Shown here: positions 54-39,309 of the stretch, piece after piece | Numbering within the stretch: position 1 is the stretch's first letter | How the letters are laid out: the number at the start of each line of letters is the position of its first letter | Source of the DNA: a virus | DNA: 39,309 nucleotides | Virus record (IMG/VR): IMGVR_UViG_3300025698_000016 | Span: 1 to 39,309 of that record | Strand: one strand, 5' to 3' | Position numbers and translations under genes: made by a program | The notes under the pieces: model-generated | What the model saw: the letters and a program-made list of their open reading frames with translations, nothing else | The model's database searches: none | What the model was told of the DNA's origin: nothing

Positions 54-213
54 ACTCGTAGGCTTACCCTACGAGGGGCTAAAAGATACTGGACGCTAAC
101 CGGAACCGGCTACAGCGCGTCCCGGTATTTGGGTCCGGGGTTCCACTCCATACCCTCCGGTTCGGAGTGGGTCTTTAAAATGCTACCGGAGACTAATAGC
201 GTAAGTTTCGCGG
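54..213. other. Intergenic region with hairpin downstream of the TFB operon
   Basis: Besides the promoter at 77-101, this gap holds a 7-bp inverted repeat, CCACTCC (143-149) and GGAGTGG (164-170), with a T/A-rich stretch beside it at 171-180. It lies about 45 bases beyond the stop of the gene at 214-501 and could terminate that operon. I see no gene here. Confidence 0.35.
77..101 (-). promoter_or_regulatory. Promoter of the small gene starting at 53
   Basis: Read on the minus strand, GTTAG-CGTCC is followed directly by AGTATCTTTTAG, a TATA-like box centred about 30 bases from the ATG. This is one of the clearest members of the GTTAG-type promoter class found repeatedly in the window. Confidence 0.6.
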
Positions 214-501
214 CTACTGAACAGCGTCGAGGAGGTCGAGGAGTTCGCCCCGATTGAACGGGCGGGCGTTATCTCCCTCTCCGGGGTCGTAGTCGAACCC
301 CGCCTCCGCCGCTACCTGTTCGTAGAACCACGACTTAGGCGGGGCGTCCCACCCGTAGACCTCCGCGGCGTCCAGCGCGTCTCCTCCGAGGGTGGAGAGG
401 ATAACGTTCAGGTCGTCTTTACGAAACGCCCCGGAGGGCGACGAGGAGATCCCCACAGCCCGCGAGATCTGTCCCCGGAGGTCGTGAACAGTCTCGGACA
501 T
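214..501 (-). CDS. Small unknown protein coupled to the TFB gene
   Basis: This encodes a 95-residue acidic protein that I do not recognise. Its ATG overlaps the stop of the TFB-like gene by one base (TAATG), so the two are almost certainly cotranscribed and translationally coupled. The N-terminal part looks helical, and the rest carries aromatic and acidic residues (WFYEQ, FDYDPGEGD) and ends in a leucine-rich helix (RGELLDLLDAV). There are no cysteines, membrane segments or signal peptide. A role alongside the transcription factor is an inference from position only. Confidence 0.7.
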   Translation of the reverse strand: MSETVHDLRGQISRAVGISSSPSGAFRKDDLNVILSTLGGDALDAAEVYGWDAPPKSWFYEQVAAEAGFDYDPGEGDNARPFNRGELLDLLDAVQ

Positions 502-1373
502 TACGAGGCGTGGTCCCGGATAGCCGCGACGCGACGGTTCACCGTGACTTTGTGGACGTTCCCGGGGGCGGCGTCCGCGGCGTCCCCCTGTGAGAGGACC
601 ATACGGTTCTCGTCCGCGGCTATCCAGTAGATCCCGGAGGCGATAGGACCCGCGGACTTACCGCGGACCCACTCCTGTCCGGCTACCTCCTCGACGCGTT
701 CGAGGGCGGCGTCCAGAACGACCTCCGGGAACGAGAGTTCGGAGTGGATAGCCTCGACCGCCTCCCGGAGACGGTCCGCGGCGTCGCCCTCGGAGATCTT
801 ACCGGAGGACTGTTCCTCCCCGCGGAGGGAGAGAACCGTTTTGTAGCCCTTCCGGATAGAGGTCCGCGAGACGCCGAACTCCTCAAAGTCCGCCTGTGTG
901 AGGTCGTCGTCCGTGAGGGTGGACGCCGCGTAGAGACACAGGGACGCGACGACCGCGGGCGTCCGGTTCGAGAACAGCCCCGTGTCCGCGCCCTCCCGGT
1001 AGAGGTCGAGGGCTGTGTTCACCGTCTCCGTCGAGGCGGAGAGTTCGTTCCCGAACCGCTGTAGGAACGCCTCCGGATCCGCGTGTTCGGGGGTGTGTCC
1101 GAGGGCGTCTACGAGACGCCGGAACTCCCGGGAAACAGCGGTTTCCGATACGCCCGCCTGTTCCGCTACCTCTCCCGCGGTGAACGGTTCGCCCTCGTCC
1201 CGGGACGCGTAGTAAACGATAGCCGGGTAGGTCCGGGCGTCCGCGGGGATCTGATAGTCCTCCTGTTCGAGGCGGTCGAGGTAGACGCGGGCTGTTCGTC
1301 CGACGAGATCCGGGAGTCCGACCTCCGAGGCGATAGCCTCCGGGTCCTTACTCCGTTCCGTGACTGTGGACAT
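501..1373 (-). CDS. TFB-like transcription initiation factor with three cyclin folds
   Basis: This 290-residue protein resembles archaeal transcription factor B, which binds TATA-box DNA with TBP and recruits RNA polymerase. Residues 98-184 match the TFB second cyclin repeat closely: DP..FLQRFGNEL, then SNRTPAVVASLCLYAAS, then FGVSRTSIRKGYKTV, the recognition-helix region. Residues 10-92 fit the first cyclin repeat (EVAEQAGVSETAVSREFRRL). Residues 198-288 look like a third cyclin-type repeat (KSAGPIASGIYWIAADE, then VTVNRRVAAI). Cellular TFB normally has an N-terminal zinc ribbon and B-reader followed by two cyclin folds. Here the zinc ribbon is absent and there is only one Cys. It may redirect host polymerase to viral promoters or act as a decoy. 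The gene has its own TATA box 27 bases upstream and is followed by an overlapping small gene. Confidence 0.85.
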   Translation of the reverse strand: MSTVTERSKDPEAIASEVGLPDLVGRTARVYLDRLEQEDYQIPADARTYPAIVYYASRDEGEPFTAGEVAEQAGVSETAVSREFRRLVDALGHTPEHADPEAFLQRFGNELSASTETVNTALDLYREGADTGLFSNRTPAVVASLCLYAASTLTDDDLTQADFEEFGVSRTSIRKGYKTVLSLRGEEQSSGKISEGDAADRLREAVEAIHSELSFPEVVLDAALERVEEVAGQEWVRGKSAGPIASGIYWIAADENRMVLSQGDAADAAPGNVHKVTVNRRVAAIRDHAS

Positions 1374-1483: not shown

Positions 1484-1966
1484 ATGGCTACGCTGGACGA
1501 CTTTACCGACACACAGGAGGAACCGGAGTTCGACGCGCCCCCACAGATCCGGAAAGCGCGTCCCGTCCCTCACCCGTATAAGAACCACAAAATCGGGAAC
1601 CTCGTAGTGGTCTATAACCGCGGGGACGAGGAGAAACGGGAGATTAAGGGCTACCGGACGACCCGGACGACGGACGCGAACCTGTTTAGGAAATTCGACT
1701 CCTACCCGATTAGCCTCCCCGTCCTCTCTAACCTTCAATTCGAGGAGGTGGAACTCGTCCTCGTCTACGAGAGAGACACAAAGACCCTCTACGAGTTCAC
1801 GCTGGACCAATACACAGCGGACACTACCGCGGAGTATGACTGGACCCACTACGACGACGACACAGGGAGGGAGATCCGGACGGACACACAGAAATGTCCA
1901 GCCCGGGAGGACGCGGTTCGAAAGTGGGACGTTACGGAGTGGACTAAGCGGGACCTGTTTCGCTAA
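1484..1966 (+). CDS. Unknown soluble protein, plus strand
   Basis: This 160-residue protein is one of only four plus-strand genes. I do not recognise a family. It is soluble and mixed in charge, with a basic, proline-containing N-terminal third and a central beta-rich stretch (NLVVVYNRGDEEKREIKGY, then FEEVELVLVYERDTKTLYEF). There is no membrane segment, and the single Cys near the C terminus cannot form a zinc site. It diverges from the TFB-like gene and lies directly before a winged-helix regulator gene on the same strand, so a regulatory or early role is possible but only inferred. Confidence 0.75.
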   Translation: MATLDDFTDTQEEPEFDAPPQIRKARPVPHPYKNHKIGNLVVVYNRGDEEKREIKGYRTTRTTDANLFRKFDSYPISLPVLSNLQFEEVELVLVYERDTKTLYEFTLDQYTADTTAEYDWTHYDDDTGREIRTDTQKCPAREDAVRKWDVTEWTKRDLFR

Positions 1967-1980
1967 TACGCCGTAGCCTC

Positions 1981-2030
1981 CGGTAACTTTTTAAGACCCT
2001 CCTCCGTAGCGGTAGGCTACCCGTAGGAGG
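1981..2030 (+). promoter_or_regulatory. Promoter and ribosome-binding site of the repeat-containing regulator
   Basis: GTAGCCTCC-GGTAACTTTTTAAG at 1973-1995 is a TATA-like element. GGAGG at 2026-2030 lies nine bases before the GTG at 2040 and supports that GTG as the start. The gene therefore has a short leader, unlike several leaderless neighbours. Confidence 0.5.
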
Positions 2031-2039
2031 GACCTCGAC

Positions 2040-2672
2040 GTGAGTTCAGAAAGCCACCAACACTTAGACGACAGAACCGGACGCTATGATGAAACGGATT
2101 TTCACGGTAGCCGCGGGGGAGGAGTAGACCGCGTTCAGCGTCCCCCGGGAGAGGCGGACGCTGTGTGTGGACCCGAACACTCGAACCGTGAAACGAATTT
2201 TCACGGTAGCCACGGGGGAGGAGTAGACCGCGTTCAGCGTCCCCCGGGAGAGGCGGACGCTGTGTGTGGACCCGAACACTCGAACCGTGAAACGAATTTT
2301 CACGGTAGCCACGGGGAGGACCGCCCCCTCCGTGGACAGGTCCAGATATGCGGGGAGGAGTGGTCCGTCGAGACGGTCGTCTCCGTCGAACGTCTCCGTC
2401 GTCGTTACCGGGACGAGTATCGGGAGTGTATGGTAGCCCTCGGAGAACCGACCCGCCGCGGGATCTTAGCGTGTCTCGTCCAGAACGGGACGACGACCTA
2501 CTCCCACCTCTCGGAGTGGACGGAGACGACGACGAGGACGGTAAAGAACCACGTCCACGACCTCCGGGACGCCGGAGTGGTCGAGGTCGAGGACGGACGC
2601 CCCGCCTCTATCGCTATCCAGAACGACGACCTCCGCCTGTTAGCCTCGGACGCCCTCTCGTTCTTAGAATAA
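2040..2672 (+). CDS. Winged-helix regulator with a tandem-repeat N terminus
   Basis: This encodes 210 residues from a GTG chosen because of GGAGG nine bases upstream and a TATA box at about 1985-1995. Residues 120-210 form an ArsR-like winged helix common in haloarchaeal regulators: MVALGEPTRRGILACLV, a recognition-helix region WTETTTRTVKNHVHDLRDAG, and a wing VVEVEDGRPASI. Residues 18-93 consist of a 33-residue unit repeated about 2.3 times (ETNFHGSHGGGVDRVQRP and following), encoded by 99-base DNA repeats that contain palindromes. The repeat part looks low in structure. It may be coding only because 99 is divisible by three. The regulator may bind the palindromes in its own gene, which is an inference. 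Confidence 0.7.
   Translation: MSSESHQHLDDRTGRYDETDFHGSRGGGVDRVQRPPGEADAVCGPEHSNRETNFHGSHGGGVDRVQRPPGEADAVCGPEHSNRETNFHGSHGEDRPLRGQVQICGEEWSVETVVSVERLRRRYRDEYRECMVALGEPTRRGILACLVQNGTTTYSHLSEWTETTTRTVKNHVHDLRDAGVVEVEDGRPASIAIQNDDLRLLASDALSFLE
2090..2305. repeat. 99-base tandem repeats with three palindromes
   Basis: Two near-identical 99-base units and flanking partial units lie inside the 5' end of the regulator gene. Each junction carries a palindrome: TGAAA-CGGAT-TTTCA (2090-2104), CCGTGAAA-CGAAT-TTTCACGG (2186-2206) and the same again at 2285-2305. Their centres are exactly 99 bases apart. The repeat keeps every reading frame open on both strands. Operator array, replication iterons and recent duplication are all possible. 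Confidence 0.85.
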
Positions 2673-2951
2673 GATCTCGTCCGCGGTCCGCGTCCTCCTG
2701 TTCAGTCGAACGCGTAGCCCGGGCGACTCCGCGGGGAGTCGCCCCGGGCGTCTCCTCCCTCCGGGAGATACGCCCTTTAGGGCGACGCCCCCGCTGTCGT
2801 CGCCCACGGTGTTAACGGCATACGGGTATGGTTTCAAGTGAACCGTCTTATAGTTACCGACTCACTACGACAGGTTAGCGTCCGGTCCGTCCCACCGCCT
2901 CGACGGGCTGGACCGGGATAGATCTCGACGGACCCGCCGCTACCGAACGGG
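2673..2951. other. Convergent intergenic region rich in hairpins
   Basis: No gene is seen in this gap between the plus-strand regulator and the last gene of the tail operon. It holds a strong hairpin with 10-bp arms, GGGCGACTCC (2721-2730) and GGAGTCGCCC (2735-2744), loop GCGG, and a small one, CGCCCT-TT-AGGGCG, at 2770-2783. The motif GTTAGCGTCCGGT at 2874-2886 resembles the upstream half of the GTTAG promoter class but has no TATA box after it. A 14-base string at 2837-2850 recurs at 20399-20412. Confidence 0.5.
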
Positions 2952-2976
2952 GGCTACCGTGAAAATCCGTTTCACG
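2952..2976. repeat. Inverted copy of the palindrome element
   Basis: CGTGAAA (2958-2964), ATCCG, TTTCACG (2970-2976) is a palindrome of the same type as those in the 99-base repeats. Bases 2952-2974 are an exact reverse complement of 2090-2112 (23 bases). It lies immediately after the stop codon of the minus-strand gene at 2977-3393, so operator, terminator or recombination site are all possible. Confidence 0.75.
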
Positions 2977-3393
2977 TTAGGCGAGAACCGGGTAGGAGAT
3001 CCACGCCGCGGTAGTCGTGAGGACGTAGACGACGAGGAAATACCACGGTTCCCGTCCGAGGGTTCGGGAGGCTATGTTCTCCGCGGTCCCCGCGACGAGG
3101 TGGACGAGGGCGCGGAGAACCCCGTCTCCCTCGAACGACGGGATCCGGTCCGGGTCGAGACGCCGGAACCCGAACGAGGTCCCGACGAGGAACGCGGTCC
3201 CGAACGCTACCCACTCCGTGAGTCCGAGGCGGACGCCCGCCCCGGCGAACAGTCCGAGGAGTCCGAGTTCCATAGCGTGAAACTCCCAGTAGGTGAGGTC
3301 GAGGAGAACCCGACGGAGGAACGCGGGGACCCACGCCGGGAGTCCGTCCTCCGAAAACACGTAGTCCGAGGCGTTCAGCCCGTCCCGGGACAT
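2977..3393 (-). CDS. Membrane protein, possible holin-like lysis protein
   Basis: This 138-residue protein has three probable membrane segments (about residues 40-56, 60-76 and 117-136), joined by a short basic/acidic loop (FRRLDPDRIPSFEGD). It is the last gene of the tail operon, and its start overlaps the previous stop (TAATG). Size, topology and position after the tail genes suit a holin or other host-exit membrane protein, but no family motif is seen. The N-terminal DYVFSEDGLP resembles the YVFQSG repeats of the adhesin at 3893-4678, which may be chance. Confidence 0.75.
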   Translation of the reverse strand: MSRDGLNASDYVFSEDGLPAWVPAFLRRVLLDLTYWEFHAMELGLLGLFAGAGVRLGLTEWVAFGTAFLVGTSFGFRRLDPDRIPSFEGDGVLRALVHLVAGTAENIASRTLGREPWYFLVVYVLTTTAAWISYPVLA

Positions 3394-4678: not shown

Positions 4679-5712
4679 TATTCAGCCCCCACGGAAACGG
4701 AGGGTTCGGTGGACGCCCACTTACGGATCCGGAACAGGTCCTCTCCGGAGGTAACGCTGTTCGCGTGAATCGTTTTATACGATAACTGGTTAGTCGAGTA
4801 CCGGAACCCCGCGGTCCCGGACCCGAGAACGCTACCGTCCGGGGCGTCTTTCACCTCCGTATAGGTCACATTATTGGGAAAGTCTATCTCCTCGTGAATC
4901 CATACCCAGTCCCCGGGCGAGATCCCGGAGTAGATAATAACCCACCTGCCTCCGTTGTAGTAGCGGACATCCCCTTCATTACTCATATCGTCGGTGGGTC
5001 CGTAGATATTCTCCTCCGTGTTCGAGGCGTCCACTACGTCCGACATAGCGTGAGTCGTCCGGGAGGAGGTGCTTTCCGTCCCTTTCATCCAGAACTCACG
5101 GACCCATTTAGATTCTGTAGAACTATCTATAGTTTGGGGCAATTCATACTGAACGCCCTCTGAAACGTCCGTCGTAAACTGTGAACCGACACTCCCCTGT
5201 TTCGCATAGGAGTTATAGGCTGTGAACGTGGGCGTCGTATCATAGTTTCTAATTGCGGTAAACGCGGCGTCGTTTGCGATAATGTCCTGTCCGTCCGTGA
5301 ACTCCTCAAAGTCATAGAACCCGTAGGGGAACGTCCCGATCCCGGAGGACGTTTTCGCGTTCGTTCCGTCCCCGTAGTATAACCAAATACTCTCCGTCGA
5401 GGACGCGGCTATGGACGGGACCTTAACCCATATCGTAGCCGTCTCCGCGGAGGCGTCGAACTCCTGTAGGTAGTGGTCCAGATAGGGAGAGGAGTCTCCC
5501 TGTGTATCGGTGAAACGTATGTCCGACCCGTCGGAGAGGGCGTTCGTGAAAATCGGATCCCCGGACCCGAACGTTACCCGAACCTGATAGTCCGAGAGAG
5601 AGGACCCGGACTGTTCGGTTATCTGAACCTCCCTCTCTAAAATGTCCACCTCCGGGAGTGTGACCTCCGAGAGTGTGACCTCCGGGAGAGAGTCCAGTCC
5701 CACGATAGTCAT
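4678..5712 (-). CDS. DUF2341-domain tail adhesin
   Basis: This 344-residue protein has a DUF2341-type domain at about residues 26-120: a beta-rich stretch with DYQVRVTF, then SDIRFTD, YLDHYLQEFD, ATIWVKVPSI and SIWLYYGDG. These strings are typical of DUF2341 proteins on archaeal and bacterial surfaces. A second LamG-like domain follows from about 130 (GFYDFEEFTDGQDI). The N terminus carries a short tandem repeat (LPEVT, LSEVT, LPEVD). The gene directly follows the main fibre gene (adjacent stop and start) and precedes another lectin-like gene, so it probably belongs to the host-binding tip of the tail. Confidence 0.7.
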   Translation of the reverse strand: MTIVGLDSLPEVTLSEVTLPEVDILEREVQITEQSGSSLSDYQVRVTFGSGDPIFTNALSDGSDIRFTDTQGDSSPYLDHYLQEFDASAETATIWVKVPSIAASSTESIWLYYGDGTNAKTSSGIGTFPYGFYDFEEFTDGQDIIANDAAFTAIRNYDTTPTFTAYNSYAKQGSVGSQFTTDVSEGVQYELPQTIDSSTESKWVREFWMKGTESTSSRTTHAMSDVVDASNTEENIYGPTDDMSNEGDVRYYNGGRWVIIYSGISPGDWVWIHEEIDFPNNVTYTEVKDAPDGSVLGSGTAGFRYSTNQLSYKTIHANSVTSGEDLFRIRKWASTEPSVSVGAE

Positions 5713-16822: not shown

Positions 16823-18028
16823 TTAGGCGACGTTCTCGACGCGGTGGAGGTGGTTGATACCCTCTCCGACGAGGGTCCCGTAGGCGTCCACCGCGAACGT
16901 TTCGGTCGGTCCGGTCTTTGCGAGAGGGTGGAGGGTAGCGTCCTGTAGCATACCCATATACCACCCGGAGAGGTCCACACTCCACAGGTCCCGGGACCCG
17001 GCGGAGTTGTTCACTCCGTGGGACTTGAGGACGGGCGTCCCGTCCACCATAAGACTCCGGAAACCGAAGTCGAGTTCGTCCCCGGGCGACTCGAACCGCG
17101 TAAAGTCGTCCAGTTCCTTTTTCAGGTCCGTGAGGACGCTGTGGGTCGTGATGTGAACCACGGAGTCGAGGTTCGCCCCCTGTCGTTCGAGGGTTTCCAT
17201 AGCGTCGTAGATGTCGTCTACGGAAATGGTCGAACCCGTGAGGTCCGTAGTGAGATCCGGGGAGGTAGTCGAGATAAGGTCCTCGAACCCCTCGAACCCG
17301 GACCCGTCCGCGTTCGTCCCCTGAATCATTTGCGTCTCCTCGTACTGACGCATAGCCCGCATCATAGCCTCCTCCGTGGTCGAACGGGTGGAACGGAGAC
17401 TCGACGCCGCCAACTGAACGAGGTCCGTTACCTCGGACTCTCGACCGTAGGGAACCACGCTGTAGGAGTGGTTCGCGTAGGTGTCGTCGGACTCCGGGTA
17501 GGGACCCGTCTCACCGAACGCGGAGACGGACCCGACCGCGGTCTGTTCGTCCGCCTCGACCGTCTCCTCCTCAACAGCCACCCGCGGGATCATATCCGCG
17601 AGAGGCGTGTTCTGTCCGGACGAAACGTAAACGTCCGGGGAGACGAAAATCGGGAGGCTGAACGCGGAGGTGTCCATCGCCTTCTTTACCTCCTGTTTCG
17701 CCTCCCACAGGGTCATATCCTGACCCGGGCTGAGTCCGTTCCACCGCTTGTAGATCTCGTCCCACCCGTCTCCGGTAAGACCGTCTCCGGAGAACAGCGC
17801 GGACGGGTAGTGGACCGCGTTCTTTTTGACGGGTCCACGGGTCGAGAACCCGTAGGGGTCCGAGTAGAGGACCTTATCCGCGTCCGGGTTCCCCGTTTCC
17901 TTTCGGACCGTTTCGTGGAGGTCCCCGAACGCCGAACGGTGGGCCGCGGTCGGACTGTTGTAGTAGGCCGGGCGCGACTTGACTACCTTCCGTTCCGTCG
18001 GGAGTCCGTTCTGTGGTTCAGCGGACAT
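16823..18028 (-). CDS. Major capsid protein, HK97 fold
   Basis: This 401-residue protein has the usual length and order of an HK97-fold capsid protein and follows the protease-scaffold gene with a TAATG overlap. The N-terminal arm (1-110) is charged. Long helices follow (SLRSTRSTTEEAMMRAMRQY at about 210-230). The P-domain/A-domain transition includes TISVDDIYDAMETL and VVHITTHSVLTDL, a common capsid string where a helix and strand lead to the A domain. The C terminus has FAVDAYGTLVG and ends VENVA. No cysteine is present, so crosslinking by disulfides is excluded. Confidence 0.85.
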   Translation of the reverse strand: MSAEPQNGLPTERKVVKSRPAYYNSPTAAHRSAFGDLHETVRKETGNPDADKVLYSDPYGFSTRGPVKKNAVHYPSALFSGDGLTGDGWDEIYKRWNGLSPGQDMTLWEAKQEVKKAMDTSAFSLPIFVSPDVYVSSGQNTPLADMIPRVAVEEETVEADEQTAVGSVSAFGETGPYPESDDTYANHSYSVVPYGRESEVTDLVQLAASSLRSTRSTTEEAMMRAMRQYEETQMIQGTNADGSGFEGFEDLISTTSPDLTTDLTGSTISVDDIYDAMETLERQGANLDSVVHITTHSVLTDLKKELDDFTRFESPGDELDFGFRSLMVDGTPVLKSHGVNNSAGSRDLWSVDLSGWYMGMLQDATLHPLAKTGPTETFAVDAYGTLVGEGINHLHRVENVA

Positions 18029-37803: not shown

Positions 37804-37857
37804 CCTCCTACGACCTACAATAGTGGACAGGGGATAATAAAGTTACCGGAGGCTAAC
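37804..37857 (-). promoter_or_regulatory. Promoter and Shine-Dalgarno site of the large acidic protein gene
   Basis: The minus strand reads GTTAG-CCTCC-GGTAACTTTATTATCCCC (37830-37857), then a 17-base leader with AGGAGG at 37804-37809, eight bases before the ATG. It is the clearest leadered member of the GTTAG class. Confidence 0.55.
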
Positions 37858-37869
37858 GGAGGATAGTCT

Positions 37870-37890
37870 CGAAAGAATAGCCGGGGTTTT
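37870..37890 (-). terminator. Repeated post-stop element, copy 1
   Basis: The minus strand reads AAACCCCGGCTATTCTTTCG directly after the stop of the gene at 37891. The same element, with one extra base, lies after the stop at 39222. Both lie just before a GTTAG-class promoter, so a terminator-like insulation role is plausible. Confidence 0.4.
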
Positions 37891-39161: not shown

Positions 39162-39190
39162 GGGGCATATAAAGATACCGGGGCACTAAC
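39162..39190 (-). promoter_or_regulatory. Promoter of the gene at 38418-39143
   Basis: The minus strand reads GTTAG-TGCCCC-GGTATCTTTATATG, box centred about 27 bases before the ATG at 39143. This is the best match of the GTTAG class. Confidence 0.6.
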
Positions 39191-39201
39191 GTAGAACAGC
39201 C

Positions 39202-39222
39202 CGAAAGGAATAGCCGGGGTTT
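39202..39222 (-). terminator. Repeated post-stop element, copy 2
   Basis: The minus strand carries the post-stop element also found at 37870-37890, with one extra C, directly after the stop of the end-spanning gene and before the promoter at 39162-39190. Confidence 0.4.
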
Positions 39223-39309
39223 CAGTCGTCGGAGTCGTCGTCCTCGGAGTCGTCCACGGAGTCGTCCACGGACAGGTCCGAGGTCTTAGCCGCTTTCCGT
39301 TCGAGACTG
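39222..39309 (-). CDS. End of a small acidic protein whose gene runs across the window ends
   Basis: A minus-strand frame enters from the right edge and ends at TGA (39222-39224). It encodes SLERKAAKTSDLSVDDSV followed by a very acidic tail (DDSEDDDSDD). Reading from base 1 through base 39309 joins it in frame to the start at 53, giving 46 residues. The function is unknown. Confidence 0.6.
   Translation of the reverse strand, partial: SLERKAAKTSDLSVDDSVDDSEDDDSDD

Follow-up and report, generated by a model that had tools for sequence, protein, structure and literature searches.

Inverted-repeat elements in and behind the gene of an ArsR-like winged-helix protein in a tailed virus of haloarchaea

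Regulators of the SmtB/ArsR family bind inverted repeats situated upstream of or within the genes they control, and their operators are 12-2-12 imperfect inverted repeats (PMC8790569). The locus described here, from a 39,309-base virus record analysed at its full length (the window), aligns with these systems in combining an ArsR-like winged helix with inverted repeats in or near the regulated gene, but it differs in that its dyads are 13-5-13 rather than 12-2-12, no site lies at a promoter, and the protein scores under the NCBIfam cut-off (PMC8790569). Archaeal virus regulators are mostly repressors, and many control themselves (PMC5569661). SvtR, AvtR and F55 resemble the present case in having several inverted or tandem sites, some of them distant from the promoter, and self-control is proposed here as well; the three are ribbon-helix-helix proteins of Sulfolobus and Acidianus viruses, whereas the protein here is a winged helix (PMC5569661). 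The halovirus PhiCh1 encodes a winged-helix repressor, Rep (PMC4284463), and in the Rep/T4 switch of PhiH opposing transcription represses the repressor gene (PMC4284463; also PMC6471424). The likeness to PhiCh1 Rep and PhiH Rep/T4 consists in a halovirus, a winged-helix regulator and opposing transcription nearby; the PhiH operator lies between back-to-back genes, whereas the sites here lie inside and after the gene (PMC4284463). Given the prevalence of self-regulating repressors in archaeal viruses and the PhiCh1 and PhiH parallels, self-control by the encoded protein at such sites would probably be an ordinary, already known kind of regulation rather than a new one.

Repeats with other functions also invite comparison. 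The intergenic repeats of HF2 are promoters that lie between genes and carry TATA motifs (PMC8707807); they share with the present elements their shortness and their setting in a haloarchaeal tailed virus, but a pattern search of the dyads found no TATA-like motif. In phage lambda the origin is part of gene O, whose product binds the inverted repeats of that origin (PMC5043065). The present locus is alike in placing inverted repeats inside the gene of the presumed binder, but unlike lambda it has no AT-rich element, a wide and out-of-phase spacing, and no significant homology to an initiator (PMC5043065). The haloarchaeal Orc1/Cdc6 origin (ORB) has an adjacent orc1/cdc6 gene and a G-string at the end of its box (PMC3528665). 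Pfam shows no orc1/cdc6 gene among the 69 ORFs scanned, and a run of 4-5 G follows the first three dyads but not the fourth.

The virus and the regulator gene

The source is a tailed virus of haloarchaea (salt-loving archaea). Baseplate, major head, head protease, portal and terminase families are represented among its genes, and the closest relatives of the baseplate protein are those of the haloarchaeal tailed viruses HCTV-2, HHTV-2, HVTV-1 and HCTV-5, at 37-43% identity (25 records matched, the remainder including Acinetobacter phages with weak scores). A twin contig of 29,469 bases (IMGVR_UViG_3300005939_000029) is 99.96% identical to the window over 16,336 bases (7 mismatches) and 99.98% identical over 5,581 bases at the other end. 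Because it links window base 39309 to base 1 through ~6,970 extra bases, the whole genome would probably measure ~46.7 kb and be circular or circularly permuted. The twin carries the same repeats, with the regulator block in the same orientation. It is longer than the window by 456 bases at window 121-126, with a 6-base overlap at the junction, which reflects either a deletion or an assembly difference. Close to its right end the window has a ~60-base direct repeat (81%), at 37830-37889 and 39162-39222. The piece missing from the window (L136 16306-17900, L137 25-873) encodes the Holliday-junction resolvase of this virus, a sliding-clamp-like protein, and a topoisomerase VI-A-like N-terminal piece whose Pfam match (E 3e-4) is below the cut-off.

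The regulator gene ends a short rightward gene pair (1484-1966, 2040-2672) that faces the end of a long leftward late operon. The features of this junction are as follows, the two TATA-like motifs being assigned from sequence only.

1484-1966, plus strand: gene upstream of the regulator gene, a relative of HHTV-2 gene 69 (phrog_13033)
1988-1996, plus strand: TATA-like TTTTTAAGA upstream of GTG 2040
2040-2672, plus strand: regulator ORF of 210 aa with a GTG start, encoding a C-terminal ArsR-like winged helix; its 5' portion holds three of the four dyads
2163-2165, plus strand: in-frame GTG after GGGAGAGG, a candidate internal start, recurring at 2262-2264
2721-2744, plus strand: GC-rich hairpin in the convergent intergenic stretch
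2847-2853, minus strand: TATA-like CTATAAG, leftward and antisense to the regulator gene
2977-3393, minus strand: last gene of the leftward late operon, encoding a small protein, hydrophobic by eye

Residues 129-196 of the regulator match NF033788 (E 1.4e-8) with 34.4 bits, below the NCBIfam cut-off of 55, and the protein scores 27.5 bits against Pfam HTH_20 (E 3e-6), where the cut-off is 27. It also matches PDB entries 1uly and 3f6o (both E 2e-4) and haloarchaeal plasmid ArsR proteins (~39-45% over 55 residues, best E 5e-3). Single-sequence structure prediction of the whole ORF 2040-2672 gave an uninformative model, with a mean pLDDT of 37.6. GTG 2040 has a GGAGG at -14, as do many genes of the same virus, and ATG 2430 is a further possible start downstream of GTG 2163 and 2262.

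The beginning of the frame differs from the remainder in composition. Measured against 106 gene segments of the same virus (mean 0.29, sd 0.15, 5th percentile 0.12, minimum -0.40), the codon score is about -0.13 over 2040-2330 (-0.12 for its unique part), -0.11 over 2331-2429 and 0.27 over 2430-2669, so that the repeat part falls below the 5th percentile and above the minimum. Histidine makes up 9.3% of the repeat-bearing N-terminal part against 1.4% overall. Its poor codon usage makes translation of this part uncertain, and the dyads lie either in translated sequence or in a long leader. Over 97 unique codons the frame would remain open by chance with P 0.06. Between 2040 and 2330 the stop-free frames are the +0 frame and one antisense frame; a second antisense frame is interrupted just twice, at 2048 and 2066, and the remaining three meet a stop in each unit of the repeat. 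The antisense ORF 2064-2312 has slightly better codons than the sense frame and was rejected because its product, with a pI of 12 and no Asp or Glu, is unlike this virus.

Scans for sigma-70 promoters and terminators, with models ill-suited to archaea, returned nothing, and no tRNA was found. Divergent from gene 1484-1966 lies a gene for a virus-encoded TFIIB-like protein (window 501-1373, minus strand; TFIIB repeats, E 1.2e-19). Between the fourth dyad and the end of the regulator gene, window 2800-2870 holds a weak dyad, GGTTTCAAGTGAACC, recognized by eye, together with the CTATAAG motif.

The dyad elements and the history of the repeat

The 23-base element TGAAACGNATTTTCACGGTAGCC occurs four times when up to 3 mismatches are allowed, against a chance expectation of 0.00 (100 shuffles). 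The core common to the copies is TGAAACGRATTTTCACGGTAGCC, and the fullest dyad is a 13-5-13 arrangement, GGCTACCGTGAAA-N5-TTTCACGGTAGCC. The three older copies are designated A, B and C, and one recent duplication turned the two tandem copies, A and B, into three.

2082-2112, plus strand: dyad element A, 13-5-13 with 9/13 arm pairs, centre 2097
2181-2211, plus strand: duplicate copy of dyad element B, with a perfect 9-5-9 inside, centre 2196
2280-2310, plus strand: dyad element B, with a perfect 9-5-9 inside, centre 2295
2952-2982, minus strand: dyad element C, inverted, 11/13 arm pairs, centre 2967
2090-2188, plus strand: 99-base unit 1, differing from unit 2 solely at 2097 and 2113 (97/99 alike)
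2189-2287, plus strand: 99-base unit 2
2288-2316, plus strand: incomplete third copy whose 29 bases match unit 2 throughout, extended to 2320 by Tandem Repeats Finder
2114-2316, plus strand: recent duplication, 2114-2217 being identical to 2213-2316 (104/104)
2136-2163, plus strand: second dyad of each unit, CAGCGTCC/GGACGCTG, an RNA stem in folding, recurring at 2235-2262

The four dyads cluster around a single winged-helix gene. With a scoring matrix derived from them, the four sites reach 40-45 bits; the next best value is 5.9 elsewhere in the window and 1.1 across the missing 7 kb, and a scan of both (~46.7 kb in all) found no fifth site. The two B copies (2196 and 2295) are the sole perfect 9-5-9 dyads in the window, and in the 13-5-13 frame they form 9 of 13 arm pairs. 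A has the same number of pairs over the whole arms, with contiguous pairing limited to TGAAA/TTTCA. C keeps 11 of 13, a value attained at three places in the window; its 23-base core (2952-2974) is identical to that of A, and its 13-base arm overlaps the TAA of gene 2977-3393, whose stop lies at the edge of the element. Because this fourth, inverted copy follows the last gene of the late operon, the motif brackets the regulator gene.

All four copies have the same right arm, and the left arm varies. At the eight outer left-arm positions the dyad is matched 4 times in A, 4 in B and 6 in C, or 14 of 24, for which random flanks give P = 0.0015; the arm limits behind this value were picked after the sites were seen, and neither A nor B stands out by itself (P 0.16). 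Compared with one another, the three outer left arms share just 1, 3 and 4 of 8 positions. This pattern would favour the symmetry having been kept.

Tandem Repeats Finder reports 2090-2320 with a period of 99, 2.3 copies, 97% matches and a score of 441, by far the top of the 60 rows returned for the window. The two differences between the units, at 2097 and 2113, both fall in or directly beside the palindrome; copies 2 and 3 carry identical letters there, and at 2097 the inverted copy C shares its letter with copy 1. The most economical history has A, B and C as distinct copies at the outset, followed by a change in B and then by a doubling of the segment running from behind A to where B ends. 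The doubling was a single, very recent tandem event whose breakpoints lie in or beside the motif. Since 2114-2217 and 2213-2316 are identical, the three tandem palindromes amount to two independent sites and one fresh copy, and the third site presumably arrived with the duplication without being selected for. The same duplication produced the even 99-base spacing, apparently as a side effect of recombination. With 10.5 bp to the turn, 99 bp correspond to 9.43 helical turns, which places neighbouring sites on nearly opposite faces of the helix. Only two distances come close to whole turns, 198 bp (18.9 turns) between A and the last B and 672 bp (64.0 turns) between the last B and C, and this may be due to chance.

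Several points raised in the earlier note can be assessed from these data. Its 99-base tandem repeats, its palindrome centres at 2097, 2196 and 2295, exactly 99 bases apart, and its suggestion of a recently amplified element are all borne out. The three palindromes it listed are all present, though the first is imperfect and the inverted copy at 2952-2982 had been overlooked. Its statement that the unit keeps all frames open is wrong, two frames being free of stops over 2040-2330; it is correct only that 99 is a multiple of 3. The array evenly spaced at nine to ten helical turns that it described carries little weight, being one duplication with an out-of-phase period.

Operators and other readings

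The best single reading, held tentatively and at somewhat short of an even chance, is that a DNA-binding protein uses the four dyads as operators; the likeliest candidate is the ArsR-like winged-helix protein whose gene lies between them. It recommends itself because all four sites surround one winged-helix gene and occur nowhere else in ~46.7 kb, the matrix separating them sharply (40-45 bits against at most 5.9 elsewhere). A dimeric regulator needs a symmetric dyad, and the elements are suited to one; the left arms of A, B and C have diverged and yet lean toward the complement of the right arm. We infer that a protein binds these sites, that it is the encoded regulator, and that binding represses. 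Bound at the 5' sites (2082-2310), the protein would block or slow its own transcription downstream of the TATA-like box at 1988, a form of self-repression in which elongation is blocked within the 5' part of the gene. Occupancy of the inverted site (2952-2982) would affect the end of the late operon, where the protein might halt late transcripts running antisense through the regulator gene or, alternatively, engage in looping to the 5' sites. Published relatives also favour this reading: SmtB/ArsR regulators with inverted repeats upstream of or inside their target genes (PMC8790569), archaeal virus repressors, many of them self-controlling (PMC5569661), and the winged-helix repressor of PhiCh1 (PMC4284463).

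Several observations weigh against operators. No site lies on the TATA-like box or the presumed transcription start, the first centre being ~100 bp downstream of the box, and the divergent promoter region 1374-1483 and all other genes are likewise free of sites. The spacing of 9.43 turns is out of phase, the symmetry is uneven, with a constant right arm and a drifting left one, and the P value of 0.0015 depends on limits set after the sites were seen. The 13-5-13 dyad departs from the 12-2-12 operators of SmtB/ArsR regulators (PMC8790569), and beyond the twin contig no relative was found in which conservation could be compared. The autoregulatory operator array of the earlier note therefore stays the best reading of the sequence, but with no site on the promoter of the gene. 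Its placement of the sites in the coding start of a winged-helix gene stands as regards the winged helix, the coding start itself being uncertain in view of the codon score.

The main competitor holds that nothing binds at all: template switching, both direct and inverted, copied a short sequence a few times in this neighbourhood, and the 99-base duplication arose by a single slippage or unequal crossover. This neutral account explains the sequence history fully, from the 104/104 identity of the duplicated block to the two unit differences in or beside an older motif, and it agrees with the absence of motif and gene from the other viruses and genomes scanned, the twin contig excepted. The pairing of the diverged left arms above chance, a mild symmetry signal, and the clustering of all copies on a regulator gene speak against it, and we consider it unlikely, although a serious contender. 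Rather less probable is that the motif acts in RNA, as a stem with a 5-base loop that stabilizes, stalls or is bound. Because C is inverted and the operon runs leftward, all four copies are sense in their own transcripts, in the 5' part of the regulator mRNA and at the 3' end of the late mRNA; this agreement depends on two places only. Folding gives -11.4 kcal/mol (z -4.1) for the B copies and a z of -2.9 for A, which has an outer stem of its own, and 2010-2440 folds with a z of -2.7, but C barely beats shuffles (z -1.2; 22 of 200 as good), the stems have no following U-run, and Rfam yielded no family at the dyads and one chance match at 1732-1783. Selection might instead have acted on the 33-residue protein unit, with the DNA dyad as a by-product, a proposal consistent with the divisibility of 99 by 3, the open frame over 97 unique codons (P 0.06) and the good ribosome-binding site at GTG 2040. 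It sits poorly with the codon score of -0.12, under the 5th percentile of the reference segments if not under their minimum, with the excess of histidine, and with the presence of the motif outside the frame at C, and it is very unlikely.

In a replication origin located inside an initiator gene, the winged-helix protein would be the initiator; lambda O is a winged-helix protein. The inverted repeats inside the gene resemble the arrangement in lambda (PMC5043065), and weak matches to phrogs named replication initiation protein were obtained (E 0.002 and 0.0088). ArsR-type models match far better (E 1.4e-8), tblastn to phage O-like proteins is not significant (E 0.1 or worse), no strongly AT-rich stretch lies beside the sites (the best nearby 70-base windows have 53% AT, at about rank 140 in the list for the window), and the 69 ORFs include no Orc1/Cdc6 or Rep family by Pfam. 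An origin is accordingly most improbable, and the replication iterons considered in the earlier note find little support. As recombination sites, the inverted A/B and C copies would serve a tyrosine-type recombinase in inverting the regulator gene, or would mark the ends of a small mobile element. Inverted copies do flank the gene with an asymmetric spacer, identical in A and C, and other genes occupy the same junction in kin; set against this, no integrase, invertase or transposase family is among the matches listed (25 of 30 families listed in one scan, the genome not being closed), no flanking target duplication was seen by eye, and the twin contig has the same orientation. We give this possibility very little weight.

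Returning to operators bound by the encoded protein, it is tempting to speculate on a lambda-like variant, a long shot in our estimation, in which the sites of an archaeal virus regulator (or initiator) lie inside its own reading frame in 33-codon units. Each unit would comprise a ribosome-binding-like stretch and an in-frame GTG, and each recombination between sites would add one site and one shorter protein form with the frame intact. If the sites bind a protein, they would form a compact control circuit in one of the haloarchaeal tailed viruses, few of whose regulators have been studied, with an unusual placing inside and behind the gene rather than on the promoter and with the number of binding sites altered by recombination at the putative sites themselves. 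If nothing binds, the repeat is an ordinary tandem duplication.

Relatives and strain variation

Protein scans of the viral collection with the regulator, the upstream gene and the TFB-like gene recovered the twin contig alone, as did a search with the 24-letter dyad pattern; the 21-base motif was likewise found in the twin alone among viral contigs and nowhere in species genome contigs. In the latter, 218 stretches fitted the pattern of the regulator core and 0 were confirmed as relatives. The loose dyad CGTGAAAN5TTTCACG occurs in at least 119 stretches, and among the 80 matches listed (L007-L086) none has more than one site. Kin sharing the junction comprised 21 loci, of which 8 were compared with the window as DNA; 13, together with L127 and L129 from phage records, were searched with seven window proteins, and no regulator homologue was found. 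From the baseplate gene on, a search of L147, L149, L151, L152 and L153 for dyads of at least 9 pairs found one only in L153, far off at 18025; L153 10500-16000 has no tandem repeat, and L150 has merely an unrelated 15-base one. As far as the collections show, the regulator and its dyads appear particular to this virus.

The late operon of HHTV-2 and HCTV-2 runs up to an annotated Holliday-junction resolvase gene, and contigs L150 and L153 have a similar gene order, read from ORFs by eye; homologues of 1484-1966 come next in HHTV-2, L150 and L153. Because the same junction in kin holds other genes, the regulator block would have been gained or swapped. Elsewhere in the genome, four strain contigs (L141, L142, L144 and L145; 99.3-99.9% identical) all stop within window 4684-5665, in or near the gene after the baseplate gene and short of the regulator gene with its repeats, and the final kilobase of two of them has 94-97% identity to the window. 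This stretch looks like a strain-variable tail or adhesin region.
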